Shown piece after piece: positions 25,474 through 50,961 of a DNA stretch of 64,000 nucleotides (the stretch's first letter is position 1; the number at the start of each line of letters is the position of its first letter). Both the position numbers and the translations under genes were made by a program. This stretch comes from an uncultured Blautia sp. (lineage in GTDB: Bacteria > Bacillota > Clostridia > Lachnospirales > Lachnospiraceae), in NCBI GenBank assembly GCA_934378195.1, contig CAKRPO010000007.1, positions 21,231 to 85,230 of the forward strand, read 5' to 3'. The notes below the pieces were generated by a model, which was not told the origin of the DNA, searched no databases, and saw nothing but the letters and a program-made list of their open reading frames with translations.

Positions 25474-28185
25474 GTGAAAAAACAAGTTGTGGCAGTTATG
25501 CTTAGCCTTGCAATGTGTACGTCTACTGCAGCAGAAGCAAGTATTGTCAGTGCAGCGGAGTTTTCTTCAGAGGCATCTGTGGACACAGAGACAGAATCTG
25601 AAGAGAGTCCTGTAGCTGATGATTCTACAGATGCGGCAGACACAGAAGATGTGGCAGATGCAGAGGTTGCTGTTGAAACAGATGATGAAGATAGTAACAC
25701 CGTTCAGAATGACGGAGAAGTAGCAGATGATCAGGTGGCAGACTTCAGCGCTGAGGATACGACAGATGCAGTTGTATTTGAAGATGAGACACAGATTGCC
25801 GAAGCTACAGCTGCTGAAGCTGGTGCGAAGGTGAATGAATCAGCAAATGAGCATGAAGCAAGTCTTTTATATACGAGATGGGAGCCGGACAATGCACAGA
25901 ATCCTACCAAATGGAAACTGAAAAAGCTTTCCACTCCAAAGCCACAGGAAGCGCAGGACGCTACTGCTGTTGTTGGAACAGAGACAGCAGAAACAGAACC
26001 TGCAGCTGATGAGACTGTTTCTGCAGAAGAAAATATTGATGCAGCGGCACAGGCTGATACAGAGACACAGACAGATGCTGTGGATACGGCTGAAGCAGCA
26101 GAACAGGATGCAGATACAACAGCAGATACAACAGACACAGCGGATGTTCAGCAGGATGCAGATACAACAGCAGATACAACAGACACAGCGGATGTTCAGC
26201 AGGATGCCGATACAACAGCAGATACGACAGACACAGCAGATGTTCAGCAGGAAGTAGATACACAGACAGCAGAGGAGACTGGCGAGGCATGTGAATATTA
26301 CACATCTGCCGATGGACTGATGAAGATTACAACTCTGAACAGCGATGGAAGTGAACTTTTCACAGCTTATTATGCATTTGATAAAGATGGATATCTGCTG
26401 ACTGGCAGAAATCAGGTAGGAGACAATGATATTGATTATTACTATTTCCTCACATCAGGAGAGGTAAAAGTCAGCAATACTCTGAATACATCTGTTAAGA
26501 CACCATATAACTCCAAACTTGGTCAGATGATCACAAAGGAATGGAGATGGAATGCAAAGGACGGCGTATTTAATTTTTACGCTCCGAAGCAGGAATACTT
26601 TGTAGTTAACAGAACTTACAAGATCAATGGTGTTTCCTACTACCTGCTGAAAGGTGGTAAACCGTACGTTGGAGACAAGACGATCAGCGGCGCTGTTTAT
26701 TATTTCCGTCCGGCAGCATCTTCCAAGGATATTCCTGGTAAGATGGCAAGCAATGGATGGTTCAGCAAAAACGTAAAGAATAATGTTCAGTGGCGTTACT
26801 TTGATGCAAACGGACGTTACCAGAAAAAGGGTATCGGCGCATACAAAGTTAAGAGCAACGACAAGAGGCTCTATCTTCTTGATGCAAATGGATATCTGAT
26901 CCGCAGCAAAAAGATGGTAAAGGGTGCAGACCGTTACTATTATCTTGCTGATGGAAATGGCGTTGCATATACAAATAAACTTGTAAAATATGGCAGATAC
27001 AGATATTATTTTGTTGGCAACGGACGTCGTGCAACATGGAAGAACCGTTGGGTCAAACTTACAGCAGTAGGAAACCGTTACTATTACTTCGGAAAGACGC
27101 CAGGCTGTGTACAGGAACAGAAAGGTATCAAGAAAGTTACTGTAAACGGTAAGTTTGTTGGATGGTTTAACTTCCCGGCAAATGGAAATCATTTAAAGGG
27201 ATGCTGGAGTGGAAACAGATATTATCTGGCAGATGGACGTATGGCAAGTGGCGTGACCAAGATCGGAAGCAGATACTATTTCTTCCAGAGATCCAGCACA
27301 ACAGCATACAAAGGTCTGGTATATAAGAGCAAATGGATCAAATACAATAATAAATACTATTTTGCATGCTCCACAGGTGTCCTTGCTGATAACGGCTGGA
27401 GACGTATCAAGATGAACGGAACTTACTATTATTTCCTGTTTAAGAACTGTACAGCAGTAACAAATAAATCCGGTGTACAGCATAATGGTACTTACGGAAG
27501 TCTGGACAGCATGGGACGTTTCGTTACAGCAGGATGGGTTATTGTAAATAACAGCCGAAATCTTATCCGTTATATGGATCCGAAGACTGGCAAGTATGTG
27601 AAGAATACAGTCAGAATGATCAATGGTGTACAGTACAGATTTAACAAGAATGGATACAGAGTCAATGATCGTACCAATGAGTTTAAGCAGAGCAGCTATT
27701 ATCTGACATGTGACCGTGTAAATGGTGTCATGACAGTATACACCAACAGTCGTATGACAATCCCGATCAAGACAATTCGTGTATCCGTTGGTAAGGCAGG
27801 TACAGATACTCCGAGAGGAACATTTACCCTCAGGAGATCTGCTCGCTGGCAGCCACTGATGGGACCGTCCTGGGGTCAGTATGGTACAAATGTAGTCGGT
27901 GGTATCTTTGTTCATTCTGTAGCATGCAGCCAGATGAATGATCATAACCTTCCGGTTGGAGAATATTTAAAACTTGGAAATCCGGCATCTCATGGATGTA
28001 TCCGCTGTTGTGTGGCAGATGCAAAATGGGTTTATGATAACTGCAACGGTTCCAGAATTAATATTTTTGATGGAACATATACAGCAGATGAGACAAAGAA
28101 GGGACCGCTGGGAAGAAAAGCAATCACACCTCTGAGAGGAAATTATACTTTCGACCCGACAGACCCGGCTTACGCTGGCAGATAA
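25474..28185 (+). CDS. Secreted L,D-transpeptidase with cell-wall-binding-like repeats
   Basis: The 903-residue protein starts at a GTG behind AAGGAGGAG and has a signal peptide. Residues about 25-270 are a Thr/Asp/Ala/Glu-rich low-complexity stalk containing a threefold 16-residue repeat. Residues about 275-740 hold many aromatic repeats of the YYYFLTSGEVKV / GRYRYYFVGNGRRATW type, like choline/glucan-binding repeats. The C-terminal domain is a YkuD L,D-transpeptidase: HSVACSQ, then SHGCIRCCVADAKWVYD with the catalytic Cys in HGCIR. Such enzymes cross-link peptidoglycan 3-3 or anchor proteins. It ends at a strong terminator, next to the polysaccharide region. Confidence 0.92.
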   Translation: MKKQVVAVMLSLAMCTSTAAEASIVSAAEFSSEASVDTETESEESPVADDSTDAADTEDVADAEVAVETDDEDSNTVQNDGEVADDQVADFSAEDTTDAVVFEDETQIAEATAAEAGAKVNESANEHEASLLYTRWEPDNAQNPTKWKLKKLSTPKPQEAQDATAVVGTETAETEPAADETVSAEENIDAAAQADTETQTDAVDTAEAAEQDADTTADTTDTADVQQDADTTADTTDTADVQQDADTTADTTDTADVQQEVDTQTAEETGEACEYYTSADGLMKITTLNSDGSELFTAYYAFDKDGYLLTGRNQVGDNDIDYYYFLTSGEVKVSNTLNTSVKTPYNSKLGQMITKEWRWNAKDGVFNFYAPKQEYFVVNRTYKINGVSYYLLKGGKPYVGDKTISGAVYYFRPAASSKDIPGKMASNGWFSKNVKNNVQWRYFDANGRYQKKGIGAYKVKSNDKRLYLLDANGYLIRSKKMVKGADRYYYLADGNGVAYTNKLVKYGRYRYYFVGNGRRATWKNRWVKLTAVGNRYYYFGKTPGCVQEQKGIKKVTVNGKFVGWFNFPANGNHLKGCWSGNRYYLADGRMASGVTKIGSRYYFFQRSSTTAYKGLVYKSKWIKYNNKYYFACSTGVLADNGWRRIKMNGTYYYFLFKNCTAVTNKSGVQHNGTYGSLDSMGRFVTAGWVIVNNSRNLIRYMDPKTGKYVKNTVRMINGVQYRFNKNGYRVNDRTNEFKQSSYYLTCDRVNGVMTVYTNSRMTIPIKTIRVSVGKAGTDTPRGTFTLRRSARWQPLMGPSWGQYGTNVVGGIFVHSVACSQMNDHNLPVGEYLKLGNPASHGCIRCCVADAKWVYDNCNGSRINIFDGTYTADETKKGPLGRKAITPLRGNYTFDPTDPAYAGR
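26104..26247 (+). repeat. Three tandem 48-base repeats inside the L,D-transpeptidase gene
   Basis: Units at 26104-26151, 26152-26199 and 26200-26247 differ at only a few positions and encode QDADTTADTTDTADVQ. They keep the frame, so copy number can change by slippage and alter the stalk length. Confidence 0.95.
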
Positions 28186-28194
28186 TAAAATAAT

Positions 28195-28221
28195 GCGCTC
28201 TCCCGGAGGGAGGGCGCTTTT
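28195..28221 (+). terminator. Terminator after the L,D-transpeptidase gene
   Basis: Stem GCGCTCTCC / GGAGGGCGC (one G-T pair) followed by TTTT. The rfbB ribosome site AGGAGG lies directly behind it. Confidence 0.85.
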
Positions 28222-28239
28222 CAGGAGGAAAAGTAAAAT

Positions 28240-29322
28240 ATGAGAACATACCTTGTAACGGGTGGTGCAGGATTCATCGGATCTAATTACATTCATTATA
28301 TGTTTAAGAAATATGATAACGAGATCCGTATCATTAATGTAGATAAACTGACTTATGCAGGAAATCTTGAGAATCTCAAAGATATCGAAGGCCGTGACAA
28401 TTATACATTTGTCAAGGCTGATATCTGTGACAGTGAAGCAATCATGAAGATCTTTGATGAAAATGATATCGACAGAGTGGTTCATTTTGCAGCAGAGAGT
28501 CATGTTGACAGAAGCATTCGTAATCCGGAAGTGTTTGTAAAGACAAATGTTCTCGGAACACTGGTTATGCTGAATGCTGCAAAATCTGCATGGGAGCTTC
28601 CGGATGGAACGTTCAAGCCGGATAAGAAATTTCTGCATGTTTCCACAGACGAGGTATATGGTTCTCTGGAAGAAGATGGCGGATTCTTTTATGAAACGAC
28701 ACCATATGATCCGCACAGCCCGTATTCCGCAAGTAAAGCATCTTCAGATATGCTGGTAAAATCCTATATGGATACTTACAAATTCCCGGCAAATATCACA
28801 AACTGCAGTAATAACTACGGACCATATCAGTTCCCGGAAAAACTGATTCCGCTTATTATCAACAATGCACTTCAGGGTAAGAAGCTTCCGGTGTACGGAG
28901 ATGGCAAGAATGTTCGTGACTGGCTGTATGTTATGGATCATGCAAAGGGTATTGATATGGTTCAGGAAAAGGGAAGACTTTTTGAGACCTATAATATCGG
29001 TGGCCATAATGAGAAACAGAATATCCAGATCATTCATATCATTCTGGATACATTACAGGAGATGCTTCCGGAGGGAGATCCACGTAAAGAGCTTGTCAGT
29101 GAAAACCTGATCACATACGTAGAAGACCGTAAAGGACATGACCGCCGTTATGCGATTGCACCGGACAAGATCAAAGAAGAAGTTGGCTGGTATCCGGAGA
29201 CCTGTTTTGAAGATGGTATTCGTCTGACAATTCAGTGGTTCTTTGAGCATGAAGACTGGATGAAGAATGTTACCAGTGGTGACTATCAGAAATATTATGA
29301 TGAAATGTACAAAACCAAATAA
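28240..29322 (+). CDS. rfbB: dTDP-glucose 4,6-dehydratase
   Basis: RfbB/RmlB converts dTDP-glucose to dTDP-4-keto-6-deoxyglucose. The 360-residue protein is an extended SDR with the NAD motif VTGGAGFIGSNY, the catalytic region STDEVYGSL with adjacent acid, and YSASKAS (YxxxK). Conserved HFAAESHVDRSI and NIGGHNE also fit. Its product is the branch point for rhamnose (rfbC, rfbD in this window) and for the aminosugar made by the WecE-like enzyme at 34411. A strong AGGAGG precedes the ATG. It is separated from rfbA by 7.6 kb of inserted genes, an unusual arrangement. Confidence 0.97.
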   Translation: MRTYLVTGGAGFIGSNYIHYMFKKYDNEIRIINVDKLTYAGNLENLKDIEGRDNYTFVKADICDSEAIMKIFDENDIDRVVHFAAESHVDRSIRNPEVFVKTNVLGTLVMLNAAKSAWELPDGTFKPDKKFLHVSTDEVYGSLEEDGGFFYETTPYDPHSPYSASKASSDMLVKSYMDTYKFPANITNCSNNYGPYQFPEKLIPLIINNALQGKKLPVYGDGKNVRDWLYVMDHAKGIDMVQEKGRLFETYNIGGHNEKQNIQIIHIILDTLQEMLPEGDPRKELVSENLITYVEDRKGHDRRYAIAPDKIKEEVGWYPETCFEDGIRLTIQWFFEHEDWMKNVTSGDYQKYYDEMYKTK

Positions 29323-29323
29323 A

Positions 29324-29411
29324 ATGCTCCGGTGATCATACGGAGAGTGAAATGCTGCGAGATTCTGGATCCAACCTGAAATTGCAGCATTTCTTATCTT
29401 TCCAGGAGCAT
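29324..29411 (+). promoter_or_regulatory. Nested inverted repeats before the ATP-grasp cassette
   Basis: Outer arms ATGCTCC (29324-29330) / GGAGCAT (29405-29411) enclose perfect inner arms AAATGCTGC (29350-29358) / GCAGCATTT (29384-29392). The inner stem followed by TTTCTTATCTTT could be a weak terminator of rfbB; the outer pairing would involve the GGAG just before the next gene. Function not established. Confidence 0.5.
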
Positions 29412-29425
29412 GAAAAGAGGAAAAA

Positions 29426-31531
29426 ATGAAGAAAATCGTTATTATTGGTGCCAACGACTTTCAGCGGCCACTTATTCAGAAGGCACATACCATGGGGTAT
29501 GAGACACATGTATTTGCATGGCGCGAAGGCGCAACAGGCGCAGAGGATGCTGACTATTTTTATGAGATCAGTATTACAGAGAAAGAGGAAATTTTGGAAA
29601 TCTGCCGGAAGATAGAGCCAGATGCAGTGGCAACGATTGGATCAGATCTGGCGAATATTACGGTACAGTATCTTGTAGAGAAGCTTGGTCTTCCGGGGAA
29701 CAGCAGTTCCTGTATTTACCATTCGACAAACAAATATGCTATGCGTGAGGCATTTCGAAATGCAGGAATTCCAGTACCGTTCTTTCAGTGTGTTTCGGAG
29801 GGAGAAACTGTCACACCGCCTTCGTATCCTGTCGTAGTGAAACCGACGGATCGTTCCGGAAGCAGGGCAATCACAAAGGTCAATACACCCGCTGAACTTG
29901 CAGAGGCAATCTCGCTTGCGGCGGAGCAGTCTTTCGAAAAGAAAGCAATTGTGGAAGAATATATTTCCGGTGCCGAGTATAGCGTGGAAACTATCAGTTT
30001 TGAAGGAAAACATACATGCCTGGCAATTACAAAGAAATTTACAACGGGAAGTCCTCATTATATAGAAGTCGCACATCTTCAACCAGCACCATTGTCGGAT
30101 GAGATGAGGCAAAAAGTTGAGGATACAGTTTTTCAGGCCCTGGATGCACTGGAAGTGCGATATGGGGCAGGACACAGTGAACTTCGCATTGGCCGTAACG
30201 GTCAGATCCGTATCATAGAAATTGGGTCCAGAATGGGCGGTGACTGCATCGGTTCGGATCTGGTGCCGCTTTCGACAGGGCAGGATTTCGTCGGTATGGT
30301 AGTAGATACAGCAGCCGGTAAGTCTCCTGTATTCTGTGAGGCAGAGCAGCATGTCTCGGCAATCCGGTTTCTCATGAATGAAAATGATGAGAAATTACTT
30401 GCACATCTTCAGGAATATCATCCGGATAAGATAAGGAAGACCGTTATAGAACATACGGTAAAAGACGCACACATTGTGGACAGTGGAAGCAGACCGGGAT
30501 TCTTTATTCTGCAGGCAGACAGTACAGAAGAAATGATGCAGCTGCTTCATCACGGACCATGGGAAAATCCAATCCATATTTTTGATACACCGATACAGAA
30601 GCTGCGTTTTGGCGAAGGACATAATGCGTTTTATATGAAGAGGGATGATCTGCTTCCGTTTGCATTTGGTGGAAATAAGGTTCGATTTGCACAAAAATTT
30701 GTGGAAGATATGCAGGCAGAACGCTGCGACAGCATGATCATATATGGAAACTATCATTCTAATCTGTGCAGGATCCTTGCAACACTGTGTCATGAGCTGC
30801 AGATTCCGTGTTATATGGTTCACAATACAGAGGATATCCGGGAAGAGAAAGAAACGGCGAACAGCCGTATCATAAAAAGAATGGGTGTTACGGAGATTCC
30901 GTGCGGCAAGGCAGGAATCGCAGCAGCTGTGGAACAGGCAATGGAAGAACTGAAGGAAAAGGGATACCGACCATATTATATATATGGAAATTCCAGAGGA
31001 CAGGGCAGAGAATGGGTTCCAATGAGGGCTTATGAAGCTGCCTTTGATGAGATCTGCTGCTATGAGAAACAGCATAGTACTGTTTTTGATTATATTTTTC
31101 TGGCATCCAGTACGAATGCAACACAATCCGGACTTCTGACTGGAAGCCTCCGTCAGAAAGATGGACGGAAGATCATTGGTATTTCTGTTTCCAGAAATGC
31201 TAAAAGAGGAAAAGAGGTAATTTCTGGAAATCTGCGGGAATATGCAGATAAATTTCAGTGTGAACTGCCGGCAGATTTTGAAAAGAGTATTTATTTTACA
31301 GATGCTTATATGGAAGGCGGGTATGGCGCCTGGTCTGAGGCGGTTGCTGAACTGATCGATACGATTTATGGGACAGATGGGATTCCACTGGATATGACCT
31401 ATACAGGAAAGGCTTTTTATGGTATGGTTAAGTATCTGGAGGAAAATCATATTCAGGGAAAGAATGTGCTGTTTCTGCACACAGGTGGTACACCGCTGTT
31501 TTTCGATTTCCTGGAGAATGAGAAAATATAA
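29426..31531 (+). CDS. ATP-grasp ligase fused to a PLP-dependent D-cysteine desulfhydrase/ACC-deaminase-like domain
   Basis: The 701-residue protein joins two enzymes. Residues 1 to about 385 are an ATP-grasp protein: pre-ATP-grasp fold from KKIVIIGAND, YPVVVKPTDRSGSRAI (ATP lysine), IVEEYISGAEYSVE, and IRIIEIGSRMGGD (Mg-binding region). Such ligases activate a carboxylate as acyl phosphate and join it to an amine. Residues about 390-701 are a fold-type II PLP enzyme with KRDDLLPFAFGGNKVRFA (probable Schiff-base lysine K418), YGNYHSNLCR and VLFLHTGGTPLFF, as in D-cysteine desulfhydrase and ACC deaminase. It opens a cassette with a second ATP-grasp gene, SMR proteins, a GT2 and a WecE-like aminotransferase. 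Substrate unknown; I infer a role in making or attaching an acyl or amino-acid group. Confidence 0.85.
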   Translation: MKKIVIIGANDFQRPLIQKAHTMGYETHVFAWREGATGAEDADYFYEISITEKEEILEICRKIEPDAVATIGSDLANITVQYLVEKLGLPGNSSSCIYHSTNKYAMREAFRNAGIPVPFFQCVSEGETVTPPSYPVVVKPTDRSGSRAITKVNTPAELAEAISLAAEQSFEKKAIVEEYISGAEYSVETISFEGKHTCLAITKKFTTGSPHYIEVAHLQPAPLSDEMRQKVEDTVFQALDALEVRYGAGHSELRIGRNGQIRIIEIGSRMGGDCIGSDLVPLSTGQDFVGMVVDTAAGKSPVFCEAEQHVSAIRFLMNENDEKLLAHLQEYHPDKIRKTVIEHTVKDAHIVDSGSRPGFFILQADSTEEMMQLLHHGPWENPIHIFDTPIQKLRFGEGHNAFYMKRDDLLPFAFGGNKVRFAQKFVEDMQAERCDSMIIYGNYHSNLCRILATLCHELQIPCYMVHNTEDIREEKETANSRIIKRMGVTEIPCGKAGIAAAVEQAMEELKEKGYRPYYIYGNSRGQGREWVPMRAYEAAFDEICCYEKQHSTVFDYIFLASSTNATQSGLLTGSLRQKDGRKIIGISVSRNAKRGKEVISGNLREYADKFQCELPADFEKSIYFTDAYMEGGYGAWSEAVAELIDTIYGTDGIPLDMTYTGKAFYGMVKYLEENHIQGKNVLFLHTGGTPLFFDFLENEKI

Positions 31532-31535
31532 ATTT

Positions 31536-32723
31536 ATGAAAAAACTAATGATACTGGGGGCAAGCTATTCACAGCTCCCTCTTTATAAAAAGGCTCATGA
31601 AATGGGATTTGCAACGATTGCAGTCAGTACACCGGGAGACTGGCCGGGATTTGCACAGGCAGATGAATGTTCCTATACGGATATTACAGATCCGGAGAAA
31701 GTGTTGGAAGCAGCCAGAGCGATGCATGCGGATGGAATCACAACATGTTGTCTGGATGCAGGAGTGCGGGCAATCGGATATACCTGCGAGAATCTGGGAC
31801 TGAAGGGTCTTTCAGCCGAAGCTGCCGATATCAGCAATGACAAATTCAAAATGAAAGAAGCATTTATGCAGGGCGGAGTCAGCTGTGCACGTCACGTCTG
31901 TATCCAAAGCAGAGAAGAACTGGAAAAAGCTATTGAAACATTTGTATTTCCGGTTGTTATCAAAGCAGTTGACCTGATGGGTAGCAGAGGAATCTTTCGC
32001 TGCAATGACCGCGAAGAAGTGTTCCGATATTATGAGAAAACAATGGAAGCTACAGGCAGGTCATACTGTCTGCTGGAAGAATTTATTGAAGGACAGATCC
32101 TTGGGTGTGAAGCAATGCTCTCTGACGGGGAAATGCTGTATTGTCTTCCAAATAATATAGAAGCATTTCAGAGTTATGTGCCAACTCCGGTCGGTCATTC
32201 TGTTCCATATCGGAAGCAGGAAGAGCTGGGAGAGGAAGTAAAGCGACAGGTATTTTTGGCTGCGAAGGCAGTAGGACTTGATAACTGTCCGGTCAACTGT
32301 GACCTGATCGAAAAGGACGGCAGGATCTATGTAATTGAGATCACGGGACGTGCAGGAGGAACCTGTCTGCCGGAAATGGTAAGTCTGTACTATGAGATTG
32401 ATTATTATGAGGCAATCATCCGCCTGGCGATGGGGATGCCGGTGGCGCATCTGTTTGATGAAGAGAAGCCACATACGGCGAATCTTTCCAGAACACTGCT
32501 CTCAGAGCGAGATGGTGTTGTGGCATCTGTTCAGAATGAAAATCCACCATCGGATGACATTGTGGATCTGTCTTTTAATATAGAACCAGGTGAGGAAGTC
32601 CACCGTTATACAAACGGAAGAGACCGCCTTGGTCAGGTGATCATAACCGGAGAGAGTCTTTCACGTTGCGAAGAGCGCATCAGGGAGATTTTGTCGAAAA
32701 TTAACATTGAATTTACTGTATGA
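31536..32723 (+). CDS. ATP-grasp ligase, second of the cassette
   Basis: The 395-residue protein (start ATG at 31536, 4 bases after the previous stop) is a carbamoyl-phosphate-synthase-like ATP-grasp enzyme: KKLMILGASYSQLPLYKKA at the N-terminus, FPVVIKAVDLMGSRGI, LLEEFIEGQILGCEAML and IYVIEITGRAGGTCLPE. It is a paralogue of the ATP-grasp half of the preceding gene (same N-terminal layout). A start at 31518 is possible but has its GGAG only one base away. The family forms amide or ester bonds at the cost of ATP; which acid and amine are joined cannot be read from the sequence. The aminosugar made by the WecE-like enzyme is a plausible acceptor by context. Confidence 0.85.
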   Translation: MKKLMILGASYSQLPLYKKAHEMGFATIAVSTPGDWPGFAQADECSYTDITDPEKVLEAARAMHADGITTCCLDAGVRAIGYTCENLGLKGLSAEAADISNDKFKMKEAFMQGGVSCARHVCIQSREELEKAIETFVFPVVIKAVDLMGSRGIFRCNDREEVFRYYEKTMEATGRSYCLLEEFIEGQILGCEAMLSDGEMLYCLPNNIEAFQSYVPTPVGHSVPYRKQEELGEEVKRQVFLAAKAVGLDNCPVNCDLIEKDGRIYVIEITGRAGGTCLPEMVSLYYEIDYYEAIIRLAMGMPVAHLFDEEKPHTANLSRTLLSERDGVVASVQNENPPSDDIVDLSFNIEPGEEVHRYTNGRDRLGQVIITGESLSRCEERIREILSKINIEFTV

Positions 32724-32738
32724 TTGTGAGAAAATAAC

Positions 32739-33116
32739 ATGAGAAATTGTCTTACTTCAAAGAAAAGTATTTTTTTATTGCTTCATATCAGTCTGCTGTT
32801 CAGCTCATTAAGCGGCGTATGCTCCAAGATGGCATCCCGGCATACCGGAAATGTCTTTTCTCTGGAGTTTATTTTCTGGTTTGGGCTGGTATTTGTCATT
32901 ATGTTTGCATACGCGATCATCTGGCAGCAGATCCTCAAAAGGATGCCATTGACGGTTGCCTATGCGAATCGTCCGGTGACTCTGATCTGGGGTATTATCT
33001 GGGGCGCACTGATCTTCGGAGAAAAGGTCACCTGGAATATGCTGGCAGGTGCAGCGGTGATCTTTGCCGGAATCTATCTGGTCACAGGTGAAGAGAAAGG
33101 CGGTGAAGAAGCATGA
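32739..33116 (+). CDS. SMR/EamA-type small membrane protein, first of a pair
   Basis: The 125-residue protein has four predicted membrane helices with small-residue and aromatic pattern (SLEFIFWFGLVFVIMFAYAIIW, in two pieces; LTVAYANRPVTLIWGIIWGALIFGE) like EmrE and the ArnE/ArnF flippase subunits. ArnE/F carry an aminosugar-phosphate-undecaprenol across the membrane in Gram-negative bacteria. The next gene is a second protein of this kind, starting within its stop (ATGA), so a heterodimer is likely. Both lie directly before an ArnC-like glycosyltransferase, which strengthens the flippase reading. A multidrug exporter is the alternative. Confidence 0.82.
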   Translation: MRNCLTSKKSIFLLLHISLLFSSLSGVCSKMASRHTGNVFSLEFIFWFGLVFVIMFAYAIIWQQILKRMPLTVAYANRPVTLIWGIIWGALIFGEKVTWNMLAGAAVIFAGIYLVTGEEKGGEEA

Positions 33117-33457
33117 GCCGTCTTCAGATGTCTGTATGTCTGTTGCTTTTTTCTGTATTTATTTCATCTGTTTCACAGATCCTGCTGAAAAAGGCTGCCA
33201 ACAGAACATACGAAAGTACAATAAAAGAATATATGAATCCCCTGGTTATTGGTGCCTATGGCATGTTTTTCTGTTCGGTGATCCTGACTATGCTGGCACT
33301 GCGGTATGTTCCGCTTTCCATGTCACCGATTCTGGAATCTACAGGATATATTTTTGTATCGGTCATGGGTTACTTCTTTCTGAAAGAAAGATTCACCAGA
33401 AGAAAACTGCTTGGTTTTGCACTGATCCTGGTGGGAGTTATAATTTTTAATCTTTAG
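33113..33457 (+). CDS. SMR/EamA-type small membrane protein, second of a pair
   Basis: The 114-residue protein has four membrane helices. The N-terminal helix ends in SSVSQILLKKAA, a pattern shared with ArnF-like proteins, and the last two carry ILESTGYIFVSVMGYFFLKE and LLGFALILVGVIIF, typical of EamA/SMR halves. It overlaps the preceding homologue by 4 bases and precedes the polyprenyl-phosphate glycosyltransferase by 18 bases. I infer that the pair forms one asymmetric flippase for the lipid-linked sugar made by that enzyme. Confidence 0.82.
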   Translation: MSRLQMSVCLLLFSVFISSVSQILLKKAANRTYESTIKEYMNPLVIGAYGMFFCSVILTMLALRYVPLSMSPILESTGYIFVSVMGYFFLKERFTRRKLLGFALILVGVIIFNL

Positions 33458-33475
33458 AAATGAGGGAAATACATA

Positions 33476-34414
33476 ATGCTGGTATCTATTGTCATACCAT
33501 GCTATAATTCAGAACACACCATTGGTAAAGTGGTAGAACTGGCTATAGAAGAATTTAATAAACTGGAAAAATACGACTGTGAGTTTGTACTTGTGAATGA
33601 TTATTCCAGAGACGGAACCTGGAATTCGATCGCGGCACTTGCAGAAGCGCATCCGAATGTAAAAGGCATTAATCTGGCGAAGAACTTTGGTCAGCACAAT
33701 GCAATCATGGCAGCACTGAATTACACAGAAGGTGATCTGATCATAGGAATGGATGATGATATGCAGAATCATCCGTCACAGATTCCACAGTTCCTGGACA
33801 AGATAGAAGAAGGCTATGATATTGTATTCGGAGTCTTTAAAGAACGTAAATTCTCCGCATTCAAGAATTTTACAGGTGCAGTCAGCAGATTTCTGTTGTG
33901 GCATCTGCTGGATCGTCCGAAGGATATTCAGATGAGCAGCTTCTGGTGCTGCAGACGATATGTGAGAGATGAAGTCGTGAAATATGATGGATATAATACA
34001 TTTCTCCAGGTGTTGTTTTTTCGGACAACACACAACATTGCCAACATTGAGATTGAGCATTTTGAGCGCGAAGTTGGAAGTTCCAACTATAATTTCAGAA
34101 GGGGATTGAATCTGTTTCTTTCCTGTCTGAACTTTACCGTCATACCGCTTCGGGCGGCTACCTTTTTTGGAACTCTTTTTTCGGCAGCAGGATTTATCGG
34201 TGCAGTGGTTGTTCTGGTACGTAAGCTCCTTGATCCGACGATTGCGATCGGCTGGTCATCTCTGATGTGTGCGATGCTGGTATTCTTTGGCATTGCATTC
34301 CTGATGCTTGGAATTATAGGAGAATATCTGGGCAAACTGATGCTGAACATAAATAAGACGCCTCAGTTTGTAATCCGGGAGAAAGCGAATATTACAGGAA
34401 AAGAGGACTTATGA
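33476..34414 (+). CDS. Polyprenyl-phosphate glycosyltransferase, ArnC/GtrB/CsbB-like GT2
   Basis: The 312-residue protein has an N-terminal GT-A domain (VSIVIPCYNSEHTIG, LVNDYSRDGTW, LAKNFGQHNAIMAAL, and the metal-binding MDDDMQNHP) and two C-terminal membrane helices (about residues 235-260 and 270-295). This is the layout of enzymes that move a sugar from a nucleotide donor to undecaprenyl phosphate: ArnC, GtrB, CsbB and dolichol-phosphate mannose synthases. It begins 18 bases after the SMR pair and overlaps the WecE-like gene by 4 bases. The likely sugar is the aminosugar of that enzyme, free or acylated, but this is inference. Confidence 0.88.
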   Translation: MLVSIVIPCYNSEHTIGKVVELAIEEFNKLEKYDCEFVLVNDYSRDGTWNSIAALAEAHPNVKGINLAKNFGQHNAIMAALNYTEGDLIIGMDDDMQNHPSQIPQFLDKIEEGYDIVFGVFKERKFSAFKNFTGAVSRFLLWHLLDRPKDIQMSSFWCCRRYVRDEVVKYDGYNTFLQVLFFRTTHNIANIEIEHFEREVGSSNYNFRRGLNLFLSCLNFTVIPLRAATFFGTLFSAAGFIGAVVVLVRKLLDPTIAIGWSSLMCAMLVFFGIAFLMLGIIGEYLGKLMLNINKTPQFVIREKANITGKEDL

Positions 34415-35538
34415 TAGATTTTAACAGACCGGCGATCGTTGGAAATGAACTGAAATACATTCAGGATGCCGTGGATCAGGGAATGCTCTGCGGCGATGGA
34501 AAATACACGAAGCTCTGTTCGGCATGGATGAAGGAACGCTTTGCAGTCAATCAGGTTTTTCTTACAACTTCATGTACACATGCACTGGAGATGGCTGCAT
34601 TTCTCAGTGAGGTTCAGCCGGGAGATGAAGTGATCATGCCATCCTATACTTTTGTTTCTACGGCAGACGCGTTTGTCCTGCGTGGAGCAAAGATCGTATT
34701 TGTCGATATCCGCCCGGATACGATGAATATGGATGAAAATCTGATCGAACAGGCAATCACGGCTAAGACAAAAGCCATTGTACCTGTGCATTACGCAGGA
34801 GTGGCCTGTGAAATGAATAAGATCATGGAGATTGCACAGAAATATAATCTGAAAGTTATAGAAGATGCTGCACAGGGTGTGGAAGCCTACTATTATGGCA
34901 AAGCCCTGGGAACCATCGGAGACTTTGGATGTTACAGTTTTCATGAGACAAAAAATTATACCATGGGGGAAGGCGGTGCACTTGTCTTTCAGAAGAATGA
35001 ATATCAGGAGAAGGCAGAAGTACTGAGAGAAAAGGGCACGGACAGAAGTAAATTTTTCCGTGGACAGATAGATAAATACCGCTGGATCGATTATGGGTCT
35101 TCTTATCTTCCCAGTGAAATGAATGCGGCGTATCTGTATGCACAGCTGGAAGAATGCGAGAAGATCAATCAGAAACGTCATCAGATCTATGATTATTATC
35201 ATGCCAGTCTGGCAGATCTGGAAGCAGAAGGCAAGATCACTCGTCCATATGTGCCGGAAGGCTGTGTTCATAATGCGCATATGTACTATATAAAAGTCAA
35301 AGATCTTGCAACGCGGACACGGCTGATCGCTTACCTCAAAGAAAATGGAATCTGCGCGGCATTTCATTATGTGCCACTGCACAGTTCGCCGGCAGGCGAG
35401 AAATTCGGCAGGTTCAGTGGAGAGGATATTTATACGACAAAGGAGAGCGAGCGGCTTCTCCGCCTCCCGATGTTCTATGACCTTTCCGAGCAGGATCAGG
35501 AATATATCGTAGATAAAATACAGAAATTTGAGTTTTGA
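34411..35538 (+). CDS. WecE-like dTDP-4-keto-6-deoxyglucose aminotransferase
   Basis: The 375-residue protein is a DegT/DnrJ/EryC1-family PLP enzyme that closely resembles E. coli WecE (RffA) throughout, with the same length: MIDFNRPAIVGNELKYIQ at the start, LCGDGKYTKLC, VIMPSYTFVSTADAFVLRG, VPVHYAGVACEM, SFHETKNYT with the PLP lysine at K181, and YTTKESERLLRLPMFY. WecE aminates dTDP-4-keto-6-deoxyglucose at C4 to give dTDP-4-amino-4,6-dideoxygalactose (dTDP-Fuc4N). The substrate is supplied by RfbA and RfbB of this region. No WecD-like acetyltransferase is nearby; two ATP-grasp genes are instead. It is the last gene of the cassette; dacA follows 21 bases later. Confidence 0.9.
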   Translation: MIDFNRPAIVGNELKYIQDAVDQGMLCGDGKYTKLCSAWMKERFAVNQVFLTTSCTHALEMAAFLSEVQPGDEVIMPSYTFVSTADAFVLRGAKIVFVDIRPDTMNMDENLIEQAITAKTKAIVPVHYAGVACEMNKIMEIAQKYNLKVIEDAAQGVEAYYYGKALGTIGDFGCYSFHETKNYTMGEGGALVFQKNEYQEKAEVLREKGTDRSKFFRGQIDKYRWIDYGSSYLPSEMNAAYLYAQLEECEKINQKRHQIYDYYHASLADLEAEGKITRPYVPEGCVHNAHMYYIKVKDLATRTRLIAYLKENGICAAFHYVPLHSSPAGEKFGRFSGEDIYTTKESERLLRLPMFYDLSEQDQEYIVDKIQKFEF

Positions 35539-35559
35539 CAGAACTACGGAGGAAAATAA

Positions 35560-36888
35560 ATGAATAAGAGAATATACCGGATCGCAGCCGGAGTCTGTGC
35601 GGCGATGATCCTGGTGTCTTCTGCAACCGTACAGGCAGCATCTGTAACGACGAATGGTACACCGGCTCCGGTGGTGACGGACAGCATTGCAGGATGGCCG
35701 GCTGCTCCGGCAATCACATCAGAAACAGCAGTGCTGATCGATGCAGAGACAGGTGCGGTATTGTATGATAAAGGAATGGATGAGTGTCGATATCCGGCCA
35801 GCACAACGAAACTGATGACACTGCTGGTTGCAATTGAGAACAGTTCTCCGAGAGATATCGTTACTTTTACAGAAACCGGTGTGAGGGATGTTACCTGGGA
35901 CAGCAGCAACATCAATGCAAAGCTTGGCGAAACTATGACGATGAAGGATTGCTGGATGGCAGCGTATATTCAGTCGGCTAATGAGGTTTGTGCGGAAATC
36001 GCAGAAACAGTTGGCGGGACAGAAGCCGGTTTTGTTGAAATGATGAATCAGAAGGCACAGGAACTTGGATGTACGCATACACATTTTGTCAATGCGAGCG
36101 GACTGCCGGACGAGAATCATTATTCGAGTGCACACGATCTGGCGAAGATCATGCAGGCGGGACTGAAGAATCACAGATTCTGTCAGGTATTGAAGAAAGT
36201 CAGTTATACGATTCCGGCAACCAATATGAGTGAGGCAAGAAGCATGCATACACATATGCCGCTGATGGCAAAGGAATCTGATCTGTATTATGAGGGATGC
36301 CTGGGCGGTAAGACCGGTTTTGCGACAGAAGCACAGCATACACTTGTGACAGCGGCAGAGCGAAATGGACGCACCTATATTGCGGTTACTATGCGTGCAG
36401 CAGATCTGGGAACAAACTGTACAGACAGCAGGGCTTTGTTCGATTATGCATTTAATAATTTTGATACGATCGATGTAGATGGTACAAAGATGACGGTACC
36501 GAAAGGTATTACGGTGAATGATCTGACAGCAGATATGTCTGAAAGTAATGGAGAAACTCTGAACAGCTATTATTACAACGGACAGTTCGTAGGTAGTGCA
36601 GCTGAGGCAAAGCCGACGGAAACACCGAGCCCGGAACCTACGGGTGAAATGGTGGATACTGAGACGCAGGAAACAACAGAGACAGCATCCTTAAATGCAA
36701 ATGAAACTGCGAATGAAACAACAGACGGGACAGAATCAGTTACTTCACAGAAATCCATTACGGAGCAGATCAACGAGATCCGTACCAATGGACTTTCTGA
36801 TACGATGAAGGTGCTGCTGATAGTAATGGGCGTTATGGGAGGTATTCTTCTCATCCTTCTGATCGCACTTTTTATAAAAAACAGATAA
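35560..36888 (+). CDS. dacA: D-alanyl-D-alanine carboxypeptidase (S11 family, intact)
   Basis: This penicillin-binding protein trims the terminal D-Ala of peptidoglycan side chains. The 442-residue protein has a signal peptide (ending near VQAAS) and all three catalytic motifs: S81-TT-K84 in YPASTTKLMT, S139-A-N141, and K251-T-G in LGGKTGF. The C-terminal domain is followed by a Glu/Thr/Asn-rich spacer and a C-terminal membrane helix (about residues 415-438) with a basic end. AGGAGG-like GGAGG precedes the ATG. A degenerate paralogue lies at 51080-52333. Confidence 0.95.
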   Translation: MNKRIYRIAAGVCAAMILVSSATVQAASVTTNGTPAPVVTDSIAGWPAAPAITSETAVLIDAETGAVLYDKGMDECRYPASTTKLMTLLVAIENSSPRDIVTFTETGVRDVTWDSSNINAKLGETMTMKDCWMAAYIQSANEVCAEIAETVGGTEAGFVEMMNQKAQELGCTHTHFVNASGLPDENHYSSAHDLAKIMQAGLKNHRFCQVLKKVSYTIPATNMSEARSMHTHMPLMAKESDLYYEGCLGGKTGFATEAQHTLVTAAERNGRTYIAVTMRAADLGTNCTDSRALFDYAFNNFDTIDVDGTKMTVPKGITVNDLTADMSESNGETLNSYYYNGQFVGSAAEAKPTETPSPEPTGEMVDTETQETTETASLNANETANETTDGTESVTSQKSITEQINEIRTNGLSDTMKVLLIVMGVMGGILLILLIALFIKNR

Positions 36889-36922
36889 ATACTTAAGAAC
36901 CTGATATAAAGGAGGAAACCTA

Positions 36923-37801
36923 ATGAAAGGTATTATTTTAGCAGGTGGTTCAGGAACCAGATTATATCCGCTGACAAAAGCGATCTCCAAACAGATCATG
37001 CCGGTGTATGATAAGCCGATGATCTATTATCCGTTATCTACACTGATGCTCTCTGGAATCCGCGAGATTCTGATCATTTCCACACCGCGGGATCTGCCGG
37101 TATTCCGTGATCTCCTGGGAGACGGAAGCCAGCTGGGAATGCGGTTTGAATATGCAGTTCAGGAACAGCCCAGAGGACTTGCAGATGCATTCATCATCGG
37201 TGCAGACTTTATTGGAAACGATGCAGTTGCACTGGTTCTCGGAGACAACATTTTCTACGGTCAGAGTTTCTCTAAAGTACTTCAGAATGCATACAGGCGT
37301 ACAGAGGAAGAAAAGGGAGCCACTATTTTTGGTTATTATGTAAGAGATCCGAGAGAATACGGCGTTGTAGAATTTGATGAGAATGGAAAGGCTCTTTCTA
37401 TCGAAGAGAAACCGGAGCATCCAAAGTCAAACTATGCAGTTCCGGGACTGTATTTCTATGACAATGATGTTGTTGAGATCGCAAAGAATGTAAAGCCGTC
37501 TGCCCGTGGTGAGATCGAGATCACAAGCATCAACAATGAGTATCTGCAGAGAGGAACTCTGAAAGTTGAGACACTTGGACGTGGTTTTGCATGGCTGGAT
37601 ACTGGAAATCATGATTCTCTTCTGGATGCGGCAGACTTTGTATCTGCATTCCAGAAACGTCAGGGACTGTATATTTCCTGCATCGAGGAAATAGCGTACA
37701 AACGTGGATTTATCACAAAAGAGCAGCTTGTAGAACTGGCACAGCCACTTCTTAAGACTGCATATGGCAAATATCTGATCGAAGTAGCGGAGGGATTATA
37801 A
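36923..37801 (+). CDS. rfbA: Glucose-1-phosphate thymidylyltransferase
   Basis: RfbA/RmlA makes dTDP-glucose from dTTP and glucose-1-phosphate. The 292-residue protein has the nucleotide motif [33 protein letters not shown], and VLGDNIFYG, normal for the short RmlA type. AAGGAGG lies 7 bases before the ATG. rfbC follows after one base. It feeds both the rhamnose branch and the WecE-like aminosugar branch. Confidence 0.98.
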
Positions 37802-48432: not shown

Positions 48433-50961
48433 ATGAATGAGAAGAATACTTCGAGATCAGGGATCCGGACAGCGAATAAGTTGTCCGGATTTTGTCAAAA
48501 CACTGATGTGAGGGCTCTTTGCTTTTTGGTGATCATACTGAGTGTGAGCTGTTGTTTTATGTTCCGAGATTATCTGTTTGGAAATGAACTGATGATCTTC
48601 AATGATATCGGAAGTGATACCTGGCAGCAGTATATCATGAATTATACGAGCATTGTCAATCACCTGAGAGACGGAAGTTTCTCTCTGTGGGACTTCAGCA
48701 ATGGGCTGGGCATCAACATGTTTAATTTTAACCTGTTTGACCCGTTTCTTATGCTTCTGTATGCAATCGGCGTCGTACTGGGACCTGCACATATGCTGCT
48801 GTATATTAATGTGATACAGATCATAAAAATACTTGCTGCGGGGATGGTATTTTACTGGTTTTTATCACAATTTACCTTCAGCTGGCAGGCGAAGACGGTT
48901 GCGTCCTATGTCTATGGATTGAACGGATTTCTCCTTGTATGGGGGCAGCATTACCAGTTTGGGACAGCCGTGATTTATCTGCCGCTGCTTCTTCTGTTTT
49001 GTGAGAAATTCATTAAGAAGAAAAAAGGGCGTGCCCTTTTTCCGGTAATGGTCTTCCTGTGCGGAATCTACAGCGTATATTTTACATATATGTGTCTGGC
49101 GGCGACCGGACTGTATCTTCTGTTTCGGATCCTGATGCTGGAGGATATGACCTGGAAAGAACGGATACAGAGATTCCTGTTTGGCTGTGTCGAAATGCTT
49201 CTTGGCATGGGAATGAGCATGGTTGTTTTTCTTCCGATGGCTGAAGTGCTGTTGAATGTTTCTTCACGTCTGGACAGTGATGGCAAAGGGTTTTCCGCAT
49301 TTATACAGGAATGCTTTACCCCGTATTCCGGGAAGTTTTATCTGTCGCTTCTGAAGCGTATGTTTTCGAGCAACCTTCAGAATGGATACGGACTTGCAAA
49401 AGGACCGCAGAAATATGCAATGAATTATTACGAGGATCCGGTATTGTTCTGTTCGGTATTTGCTGTGTTTATGAATGTACAGTTCCTGGTTATTCTCCAC
49501 AGGACAGAAATCACTAAAAGAGCGAAAAGAGTGCTCAGTGTGGTGGCGGGTCTGATCATTATAGGCGTTGCCTTCCCAATCGGTGGAACGGTGTTCAATT
49601 ATTTTACCATTCCAACCCAGCGCTATACATTTGTACTGATGCCGGTGTTCATGCTGCTGATGGCATGGATGTGGGATTATATGCGAAGGGGAGGCAGACT
49701 GAATCTGCTCTTTATCGTGCTTGTTACCATTTTGATGGGATGGGCGTATCAGGAGGGATGGAAACAGGCCGGATATGAGGTCTATAAACGAAATATCTGC
49801 TGTCTGGCAGTTACCGGAATCATAATGGCCATCTGCCTTATCCTGCTCACTCTGTTAAAAAAACAACAGATCCGAAGTGCAGTGATGGGGCTGCTGGCAG
49901 TGGTGATCGTGGTGAATGTGATCTCGGAAGAAGGGACAAACTTCCAGAATCGTGTCACTATGAAAAAAACAGATACTTCTGTTGAAGAGATGGCAGAGGA
50001 AACTGCAAGGTATCAAAAGATGCGAAGCTCCAAAGATAAGAGCATAAAGTATCAGGCAGAAAATGAGAAACCACAGGACTTTTTCCGGGAAATGTATCGT
50101 GTGGATCTGCAGGACTGTCTGGCTTATCTGAAGAATCTTGATCCGGAATTTTATCGGGTGGAAAAAGATTATATTTCCGGAACGGTAGCGATGGATGCGT
50201 CTGCACAGGGCTATCGGGGGATTTCGACTTACAATTCAGTCATGAATGGAAATATCAAAGATTTTGTCAAAATCTGTTATCCGGAGTTATTTTTTGCAGA
50301 CCATAATCATTACACATTCTGGAATAATGTAGATGATAACTGGCTGGCTGCATTCCTCGGAATAAAATATATCCTTTCAGGAAATGAGGATCCGGACGAA
50401 AGTAAGTATAAACTTCTGGATCGTGTAGGAAGTCTTTATATCCATGAGAATGTTCTGGATACGGAGACTGCTCATTTCTACAGCATTGCGATCGCGGAAG
50501 AAAGTCTGCGGGAGCTTTGTACGGAGGAAAACAGACAGGAACTCCTGGGAGAGGCAGTTGCGCTTGAGGACGGACAGGAGATTACGGAAGTTTCGGATCT
50601 GGATACGCTGAAGACAGAAGAGCTGGAACGTGGCGAGGAGGCTTCCAGTGTGACGCTGGATGCGCCGGAGACGGATTCCATGATAACCGGAAGCATCCAT
50701 GCAGAGCTTGATGGATATGTCATGTTTATGATTCCGTATGAAAAAGGCTGGAGCCTTATGATCGATGGAAAAGAGACAGAACTGCTTCGGGGCGATATTG
50801 GTTTTCTGGCCTGCAAAGTATCGGAAGGTGACCATACATTGACACTTTCTTTCCAGGCACCGGGTCTGAAAGCAGGGGCTGCAGGAAGTCTTGTATTCTG
50901 GCTGCTGTATGTGGCATTTTTGGCAGGAACACAGATATACAGAAAGAAAAAGCAGGCATAA
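48433..50961 (+). CDS. YfhO-like polytopic membrane glycosyltransferase candidate
   Basis: The 842-residue protein has about a dozen membrane helices in residues 25-495 and a large extracellular domain after it, closing with a C-terminal membrane helix and RKKKQA. FNDIGSDTWQQY in the first loop, SNGLGINMFNFNLFDP and YGLNGFLLVWGQHYQFG match the YfhO family. In Listeria and Bacillus, YfhO-type proteins move a sugar from undecaprenyl phosphate to a wall polymer outside the membrane, working with a CsbB-like GT2 and a flippase. The cassette at 32739-34414 supplies the other two parts. The gene starts 4 bases after rfbD and ends at a bidirectional terminator. Confidence 0.85.
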   Translation: MNEKNTSRSGIRTANKLSGFCQNTDVRALCFLVIILSVSCCFMFRDYLFGNELMIFNDIGSDTWQQYIMNYTSIVNHLRDGSFSLWDFSNGLGINMFNFNLFDPFLMLLYAIGVVLGPAHMLLYINVIQIIKILAAGMVFYWFLSQFTFSWQAKTVASYVYGLNGFLLVWGQHYQFGTAVIYLPLLLLFCEKFIKKKKGRALFPVMVFLCGIYSVYFTYMCLAATGLYLLFRILMLEDMTWKERIQRFLFGCVEMLLGMGMSMVVFLPMAEVLLNVSSRLDSDGKGFSAFIQECFTPYSGKFYLSLLKRMFSSNLQNGYGLAKGPQKYAMNYYEDPVLFCSVFAVFMNVQFLVILHRTEITKRAKRVLSVVAGLIIIGVAFPIGGTVFNYFTIPTQRYTFVLMPVFMLLMAWMWDYMRRGGRLNLLFIVLVTILMGWAYQEGWKQAGYEVYKRNICCLAVTGIIMAICLILLTLLKKQQIRSAVMGLLAVVIVVNVISEEGTNFQNRVTMKKTDTSVEEMAEETARYQKMRSSKDKSIKYQAENEKPQDFFREMYRVDLQDCLAYLKNLDPEFYRVEKDYISGTVAMDASAQGYRGISTYNSVMNGNIKDFVKICYPELFFADHNHYTFWNNVDDNWLAAFLGIKYILSGNEDPDESKYKLLDRVGSLYIHENVLDTETAHFYSIAIAEESLRELCTEENRQELLGEAVALEDGQEITEVSDLDTLKTEELERGEEASSVTLDAPETDSMITGSIHAELDGYVMFMIPYEKGWSLMIDGKETELLRGDIGFLACKVSEGDHTLTLSFQAPGLKAGAAGSLVFWLLYVAFLAGTQIYRKKKQA

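Follow-up and report, generated by a model that had tools for sequence, protein, structure and literature searches.

We analysed a 64,000-nucleotide stretch of DNA from an uncultured Blautia sp. (NCBI GenBank assembly GCA_934378195.1, contig CAKRPO010000007.1, positions 21,231 to 85,230 of the forward strand; hereafter, the window) and, within it, a cassette of six genes at positions 29426 to 35538 that an earlier note had read as an undescribed pathway for loading an acylated aminosugar onto undecaprenyl phosphate (Und-P). The open-reading-frame (ORF) list of the window contains the six genes, all on the same strand, where that note had placed them, and Pfam and NCBIfam agree with the labels that it had given them. 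The cassette encodes an ATP-grasp ligase (ligase A) fused to a pyridoxal-phosphate (PLP) enzyme domain (domain P), a second ATP-grasp ligase (ligase B), a pair of SMR half-transporters, a GtrB-like glycosyltransferase and the aminotransferase WecE. These genes, and three others of the locus, are:

28240..29322, plus strand: RmlB, dTDP-glucose 4,6-dehydratase (TIGR01181 480.2 bits, cut-off 365.1)
29426..31531, plus strand: fusion A-P, 701 aa, ligase A at residues ~1-375 and PLP fold-type II domain P at ~381-701 (Pfam, AlphaFold2, Foldseek)
31536..32723, plus strand: ligase B, ATP-grasp with L-amino-acid-ligase C-terminal domain, 395 aa (LAL_C2 48.1, cut-off 29.4)
32739..33116, plus strand: SMR/EamA half-transporter 1, probable flippase subunit, ArnE-like (EamA 29.4, cut-off 28.2)
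33113..33457, plus strand: SMR/EamA half-transporter 2, probable flippase subunit (EamA 43.1, cut-off 28.2)
33476..34414, plus strand: GtrB/ArnC/PgfS-like polyprenyl-phosphate glycosyltransferase (Pfam GT2 101.6, cut-off 23.3)
34411..35538, plus strand: WecE, dTDP-4-amino-4,6-dideoxygalactose (Fuc4N) transaminase (NF008687 632.9, cut-off 375)
36923..37801, plus strand: RmlA, glucose-1-phosphate thymidylyltransferase, dTDP-glucose supply (NTP_transferase 262.4 bits; 95% identity to the copy in locus L001, below)
48433..50961, plus strand: YfhO-family membrane protein, probable GT-C enzyme (PF09586 222.9, cut-off 28.5)

The product of RmlB is the 4-keto intermediate common to dTDP-rhamnose and dTDP-Fuc4N. 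RmlB ends 103 bp upstream of the fusion gene, and downstream of the cassette Pfam identifies RmlA, RmlC and RmlD, an ABC exporter with Wzt_C, large double GT2 proteins and the YfhO membrane protein, surroundings that suggest a rhamnan-type wall-polysaccharide locus. The spacings between the six genes are, in order, 4, 15, -4, 18 and -4 bp, and would be compatible with one operon. Promoter-like sites (22 vs. 17.5 +/- 3.8 in shuffles) and terminator-like sites (7 vs. 6.1 +/- 2.9 in shuffles) at positions 28100-37100 occur at approximately chance level, and we therefore claim no transcript boundary. For the start of ligase B, a longer ORF from 31419 overlaps the fusion gene, and 9 aligned relatives begin at MKKLMILGAS. 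The 24 window proteins scanned with Pfam, located between 25474 and 59541, include no acetyltransferase and no formyltransferase, the latter being the activity of an ArnA-type N-acyl step.

WecE carries the firmest label of the cassette, exceeding the curated NCBIfam cut-offs not only of NF008687 but also of TIGR02379 (615.9 bits, cut-off 434.85), with a Pfam DegT match of 301.8 (cut-off 19.8); this strong family evidence points to dTDP-Fuc4N, the galacto form, as its predicted product. The GtrB-like protein (PgfS model, 170.0 bits; ArnC model, 167.1 bits vs. a cut-off of 529), SMR1 (ArnE model NF011625, 39.8 bits, cut-off 92) and SMR2 (ArnF model, 31.1 bits, cut-off 99) score below the curated cut-offs, and we therefore call them like ArnC, ArnE and ArnF, not members of those families.

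The fusion protein matches ATP-grasp_4 (83.2 bits, cut-off 27) and PALP (92.2 bits, cut-off 35) in Pfam, and its AlphaFold2 model is a confident two-domain structure (pLDDT 87.4, pTM 0.82) for which the best Foldseek matches are the L-amino acid ligase 3vot for the N-terminal half (E 6.8e-28) and D-cysteine desulfhydrases for the C-terminal half (4d9e, E 3.5e-23). Ligase A is nearest by sequence to the Bacillus ligase BL00235 (92.1 bits), and its nearest solved relatives by sequence and fold include the L-amino acid ligases 3vot, 30vh, BacD and RizA; it has no Pfam match to LAL_C2. Ligase B has the domain tested for in L-amino acid ligases (LAL_C2, as listed), together with ATP-grasp_4 (37.3 bits, cut-off 27), and is nearest to PDB entry 4dim of Anaerococcus prevotii (334 bits), deposited as a phosphoribosylglycinamide synthetase.

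Conservation of the cassette and of its PLP domain

A scan of species genomes with a profile of the fusion yielded 53 loci. Of these, 40 have a ligase-PLP fusion (L001-L038, L042, L043), 3 a near relative of P that stands alone (L039-L041) and 10 a more distant P-like gene. WecE is present in 33 of the fusion loci, GtrB in 33, the SMR pair in 29 and, within the flanks examined, YfhO relatives in 11; 19 loci have every part, namely the fusion, a further ligase, both SMR genes, GtrB and WecE. Five of the 7 fusion loci that have no WecE lie at contig ends, and the other two are L012 and L030. Because the 40 fusion loci share largely the same neighbours, we conclude that the cassette is more than a chance assembly. 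Lack of co-occurrence outside this strain had been named beforehand as grounds for abandoning the pathway, which these loci instead support; the SMR pair and the ArnC-like glycosyltransferase, which the earlier note had counted as cassette parts, prove frequent but not universal.

In L001, from Blautia sp. MSJ-19, 17 of the reference genes follow the order seen in the window; 15 are 80-98% identical, and the remaining two encode the L,D-transpeptidase YkuD (57%) and a carboxypeptidase (73%). Other strains with the cassette include Blautia caecimuris DSM 29492 (L007) and B. schinkii DSM 10518 (L009). Across the phylum, sampled evenly with 398 genomes, 34 genomes match the fusion at E <= 1e-30, and the fusion looks confined to Blautia and its relatives; single ligases beside WecE are commoner than the exact arrangement in the window.

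P is carried by either of two ligases. It is fused to A in 21 loci, 20 of which have B as a gene of its own (L015 breaks off within the fusion), and to B in 19 loci, of which 7 have a different second ligase, A2, 3 have a WbqC-family gene and 9 have neither at the threshold used. The WbqC-family genes (PF08889; L022:2399, L031:12227, L042:12138) lie between the B-P fusion and the SMR pair in loci where the second ligase is missing; we know of no demonstrated activity for WbqC. In a ligase tree of 68 rows, A (20 rows), A2 (7) and close B (26) form separate groups with support of 100 each, and the P-bearing A proteins and P-bearing B proteins fall in different groups. The WecE neighbourhoods surveyed below contain 13 solo A genes. 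Both the ligase tree and the P tree draw on the window, 6 of the 21 A-P loci and 18 of the 19 B-P loci; they omit the six survey fusion loci L125, L129, L133, L146, L150 and L175, five of which repeat L029, L018, L036, L010 and L035, and of which L133 is no repeat. The direction in which P moved between A and B is not resolved by the P tree. The finding of P on either of two separate ligases, with the set kept together, is good evidence that the parts work jointly.

The P tree separates 33 near relatives (support 92) from 14 more distant, desulfhydrase-like proteins. Membership of the near group was assigned on identity and context ahead of tree building, so that its context count describes a chosen group: 25 of the 33 members are fused to a ligase and the other 8 lie beside an ATP-grasp gene. 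One of the 8, in L145, adjoins a B-type ligase; the others, in L039-L041 and L191-L194, abut an ATP-grasp gene (confirmed by Pfam in six of these loci and recognised by similarity in L193) and have a WecE-like (26-36%) aminotransferase within the locus. L192 and L193 also encode a small phosphoglycosyltransferase of the kind used in bacillosamine-type pathways (for L192, Bac_transf scores 237 bits). With the references used, no ligase was recognised near the 14 distant relatives, some of whose loci are short (L044, L046, L049, L050, L053 and L198; 4.6-10.2 kb); the P tree does not contain L050, L051 or L053.

The alignment of P shows K418, S445, N446, Y633, Y659 and T686 to be invariant in all 33 near relatives, and K418, S445, N446, Y633, Y659 and D656 to be invariant in the near and distant sets alike; Y440 and T563 distinguish the near set. 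We take the Lys, the Ser-Asn pair, the Tyr and the Thr to be a catalytic set, in which the Ser-Asn pair (S445, N446) presumably binds a free carboxylate. Because this pair is invariant, action of P on a sugar-bound aminoacyl group appears less likely than action on a free acid. P scores 124.8 bits with the D-cysteine desulfhydrase model TIGR01275, below the cut-off of 289.4.

Assignment of P as a 1-aminocyclopropane-1-carboxylate (ACC) deaminase was considered and rejected: the positions of Glu and Leu in 1rqx are Thr and Thr in P, as in the D-cysteine desulfhydrase 4d97. The structure 1j0a, deposited as an ACC deaminase, likewise has Thr and Thr at those two positions.

Several other genes of the locus were also noted. 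An L,D-transpeptidase gene (YkuD; 25474-28185), frequent in Blautia loci, encodes Asp/Thr-rich N-terminal repeats and, by eye, wall-binding-like repeats. D-Ala-D-Ala-carboxypeptidase-like genes occur immediately after WecE (35560-36888) and, as a second copy (Peptidase_S11), at 51080-52333 on the minus strand of an otherwise plus-strand locus. A 728-aa protein (40449-42635) that adjoins Wzm/Wzt with Wzt_C has an N-terminal methyltransferase domain (Pfam) and, by eye, a kinase-like stretch and a C-terminal coiled-coil-like tail, which we take to resemble a WbdD-type chain-end capping enzyme; it is matched by two ORFs in L003, L008, L009 and L019.

Acyl modules beside WecE and the lipid-carrier step

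We surveyed the neighbourhoods of WecE in the family of the L001 genome. WecE scores over its cut-off in 95 of 299 genomes, at 97 places, of which 94 were used (left out: G001, already in the set; G097, partial; G170, below cut-off); these 94 neighbourhoods overlap with the 53 named loci. Within 8 kb on either side and with a loose cut, 38 neighbourhoods have an ATP-grasp gene, 29 a GNAT or WecD-like acetyltransferase, 1 both and 28 neither (Fisher p 2.3e-7). With a strict cut (ATP-grasp >100 bits, carbamoyl-phosphate synthase removed), which was chosen after the hits had been inspected and which removes L108 (98 bits), L123 (52) and L127 (51) by score and L165 as a carbamoyl-phosphate synthase, the counts are 34, 29, 0 and 31 (p 8.7e-8). 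Within 5 kb, a range that drops the weak GNAT matches of L091, L126 and L136 (49-55 bits) counted at 8 kb, they are 28, 26, 0 and 40 (p 2.3e-5). All of these p values are inflated by the relatedness of the loci. Because ligase and acetyltransferase exclude each other in the 94 neighbourhoods, we conclude that ATP-grasp ligases probably replace the acetyltransferase, as the earlier note had proposed. That note had named WecD as the enzyme replaced; the exchange of an acetyltransferase stands, but the identity as WecD does not, since the acetyltransferases beside WecE are mostly GNATs (26/94, with a model built here) and seldom WecD-like (3/94, with a one-sequence model). The one GNAT representative examined is PseH-like (89.1 bits, cut-off 93.1), and PseH-type GNATs acetylate 4-amino sugars.

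The exchange appears to have recurred. On the WecE tree, the ATP-grasp label requires 19 changes vs. a shuffled mean of 28.5, and because at least 4 of these are forced by well-supported branches, the acyl module has changed more than once. A-like ligases (29-34% identity) also occur in the bacillosamine-type clusters L195 and L196, which encode a PglF-like dehydratase (Polysacc_synt_2 and CoA_binding_3), a small phosphoglycosyltransferase and a DegT-type aminotransferase, and in L204, in a cluster with a NeuB gene; two of these ligases match LAL_C2 (L195, 66.2 bits; L204, 61.7; cut-off 29.4). These clusters, together with Neisseria PglB2, suggest that ATP-grasp acylation of 4-amino sugars recurs.

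The survey also links P to one of the two ligases: P accompanies 7 of 11 B-type ligase neighbourhoods (5 assigned by the ligase tree, 6 by similarity) and 0 of 23 neighbourhoods with other ligases (p 6e-5). We infer that P may prepare or correct the acid used by B, through racemisation, elimination or replacement.

Two observations tie the acyl module to the lipid-carrier step. The gene at L179:10528-12474, which overlaps a divergent WecE by 4 bp, encodes an ArnC-similar GT2 and an ATP-grasp ligase in one 648-aa protein, of which the GT2 half scores 53.7 bits with the ArnC model (cut-off 529) and 70.5 with Pfam GT2 (cut-off 23.3), and the ATP-grasp half scores 184 bits with the survey ligase model and 65.5 with PRK02186, a ligase-lyase model. 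The GtrB tree covers 51 proteins, one from the window and the others from the 50 of the 94 loci in which a GtrB scoring >330 bits lies within 8 kb. With 5 'none' rows left out, the 46 labelled rows show only 2 changes between GNAT and ATP-grasp labels (shuffled mean 15.4, minimum 11 in 200 shuffles); the WecE tree of the same 46 rows has 4. The results would fit acylation that precedes transfer to Und-P.

Predicted pathway and alternatives

We consider it fairly probable that the cassette makes an N-acylated Fuc4N, loads it onto Und-P and delivers it to the wall polysaccharide of the surrounding rhamnan-type locus. According to this proposal, RmlA and RmlB would yield dTDP-4-keto-6-deoxyglucose, which WecE would aminate to dTDP-Fuc4N (strong family evidence). 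The ATP-grasp ligases would then activate carboxylic acids with ATP and form an amide at the 4-amino group in place of the acetyltransferase, a step supported by the acetyltransferase/ligase exclusion and by the fusions. Given the invariance of the Ser-Asn pair that presumably binds a carboxylate, P, which is D-cysteine-desulfhydrase-like and has its catalytic set intact, would most likely make or adjust the free acid for B. GtrB would transfer the acylated sugar to Und-P in the manner of ArnC, the SMR pair, by family, would flip the Und-P-linked sugar, and YfhO may move the sugar from Und-P to the polysaccharide outside. ArnC itself acts after formylation in the Arn pathway. The gene partnership, and what the ligases replace, appear well supported; the chemistry is predicted.

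Several observations weigh against the proposal. In L012 the cassette is present without WecE, a carboxypeptidase gene lying directly after GtrB (L012:14127-16375), so that the aminotransferase is lost or located elsewhere; in L030 no WecE is in reach; and the B-P loci L027-L029 have no nearby GtrB. The full fusion is rare, with a full-length match in 1 of the 398 phylum genomes, the query's own, and P is present in just 7 of the 94 WecE neighbourhoods, 31 of which have neither acyl module with the strict cut. L190, outside the 94, has WecE, ligase A and a GNAT (Pfam 41.7, cut-off 25.4), as well as a weak WecD-like protein (27.9 bits, cut-off 219); because L190 holds both modules, the exclusion is not absolute, and ligation and acetylation can coexist. 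When kinship is corrected for, the swap test is underpowered, with 2 independent pairs on starred branches, in which the ligase runs opposite to GNAT in 1.3 pairs on average and the same way in none. The ATP-grasp half of the L179 protein is below Pfam cut-offs (ATP-grasp_4, 20.8 vs. 27; LAL_C2, 27.7 vs. 29.4), the GtrB, ArnE and ArnF models are matched only below theirs, and inheritance of cassette parts as a block would equally yield the pattern of the GtrB tree.

A and B together may attach a first amino-acid-like residue and then a second acid, or may use alternative acids. On the former basis, we tentatively suggest that the wall glycan of Blautia and related Lachnospiraceae may have Fuc4N side chains with a two-residue, peptide-like amide, made by two consecutive ATP-grasp ligases and containing an unusual amino acid from P; this would be, equally tentatively, a way to aminoacylate wall polysaccharide through a lipid carrier, distinct from D-alanylation of the Dlt type. 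It is rather unlikely, and yet in line with one known system, that the same pathway uses a hydroxy or oxo acid (e.g. glycerate, as in the glyceramido-acetamido trideoxyhexose, GATDH, of Neisseria), A and B then not being sequential peptide-like ligases: according to published accounts, the ATP-grasp/phosphoglycosyltransferase PglB2 gives a glyceramido group (PMC11130364, PMC6959607), and the present results single out no particular acid. Against this alternative, the closest solved relatives of A include L-amino acid ligases, and B has LAL_C2, though its closest structure is 4dim.

Improbable, in our judgement, is a division of the locus into two side-chain systems, in which WecE and the ligases would serve one sugar, and GtrB, the SMR pair and YfhO would serve an ordinary sugar such as glucose. 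GtrB/YfhO-type pairs are known for glucose or GlcNAc side chains, and 7 of the 40 fusion loci have no GtrB and 11 no SMR pair, in some cases at a contig end; but the GT2-ATP-grasp fusion of L179, the GtrB tree that tracks the acyl module and the 4-bp overlap of GtrB and WecE in the window all argue against such a division. Production of a free dipeptide or small metabolite by the ATP-grasp and PLP proteins, with the sugar locus incidental, has in its favour that L-amino acid ligases, which are dipeptide makers, are among the nearest solved relatives, but is made very improbable by the exclusion with sugar acetyltransferases, the sugar-locus context of near relatives of P and the L179 fusion.

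If the proposed acylation and delivery of Fuc4N are correct, exchange of an acetyltransferase for an ATP-grasp ligase would be a recurrent means of diversifying lipid-linked 4-amino sugars in gut Firmicutes, beyond Neisseria. The proposal would predict the chemistry of a Blautia cell-surface glycan, yield new aminosugar-ligating enzymes and account for 'ACC deaminase-like' genes in polysaccharide loci, and a free amine on the surface glycan would alter wall charge and host recognition.

Comparison with known systems

The Fuc4NAc branch of enterobacterial common antigen uses RmlA/B, WecE and WecD. The cassette resembles this branch in its nucleotide-sugar enzyme, a WecE over cut-off, and differs in that no WecD is present in the 24 proteins scanned and in that the sugar would be transferred to Und-P by a GtrB-type enzyme, not directly to the lipid-linked chain. 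The Arn pathway (ArnB/A/C/D/E/F/T) provides a parallel in layout: a 4-aminotransferase, an N-acyl group added before a GT2 enzyme loads Und-P, an SMR flippase and a final membrane glycosyltransferase. The differences are that here the sugar would be dTDP-Fuc4N made by WecE, that ATP-grasp ligases would take the place of formylation and YfhO that of ArnT, and that the proteins fall below the ArnC, ArnE and ArnF cut-offs.

The ligases share with L-amino acid ligases (BL00235/3vot, BacD, RizA) the ATP-grasp fold and, in B, LAL_C2; they differ in the low identity of A (16-22%, Foldseek), in the sugar-locus context and in the PLP enzyme fused to A. P shares with the D-cysteine desulfhydrase/ACC deaminase family the PALP fold, the catalytic Lys, Ser-Asn and Tyr, and the desulfhydrase-type Thr pair; it differs in scoring below the family cut-offs and in forming a separate group with invariant residues of its own.

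The principle of exchanging an acetyltransferase for an ATP-grasp enzyme is already known. In passages of a review and a research article, Neisseria PglB2 is described as an allele that combines ATP-grasp with a phosphoglycosyltransferase and yields a glyceramido in place of an acetamido group on the sugar; it and PglB, the acetyltransferase allele, are mutually exclusive (PMC11130364, PMC6959607). The same mutual exclusion is found here (both modules in 0/94 neighbourhoods with the strict cut and 1/94 with the loose cut, with L190 as an exception outside the set), as is an ATP-grasp enzyme in the acetyltransferase position; a 4-amino sugar with another acid and an Und-P-based carrier would likewise be common to both. 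As far as can be compared from those descriptions, the Neisseria system differs in using a UDP-2-acetamido sugar, Und-PP formed by a phosphoglycosyltransferase and one ligase, with no PLP partner mentioned. The PglB2-type fusion of ATP-grasp to phosphoglycosyltransferase (PF02397) was not found; the fusions are to PALP in the window and to GT2 in L179.

The open-licence literature searched described neither a WecE/ATP-grasp/GtrB/SMR cassette nor a ligase-PLP fusion. The earlier note's reading is partly supported: co-occurrence outside this strain and the exchange beside WecE bear it out, the acid, the reaction of P and dTDP-Fuc4N as substrate of the ligases are predictions, and the exchange itself has a precedent in PglB2. 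What is probably new here is a pair of ligases with a distinct PLP subclade, P, on either, a probable dTDP-Fuc4N/Und-P route and a rhamnan-type locus as the setting.

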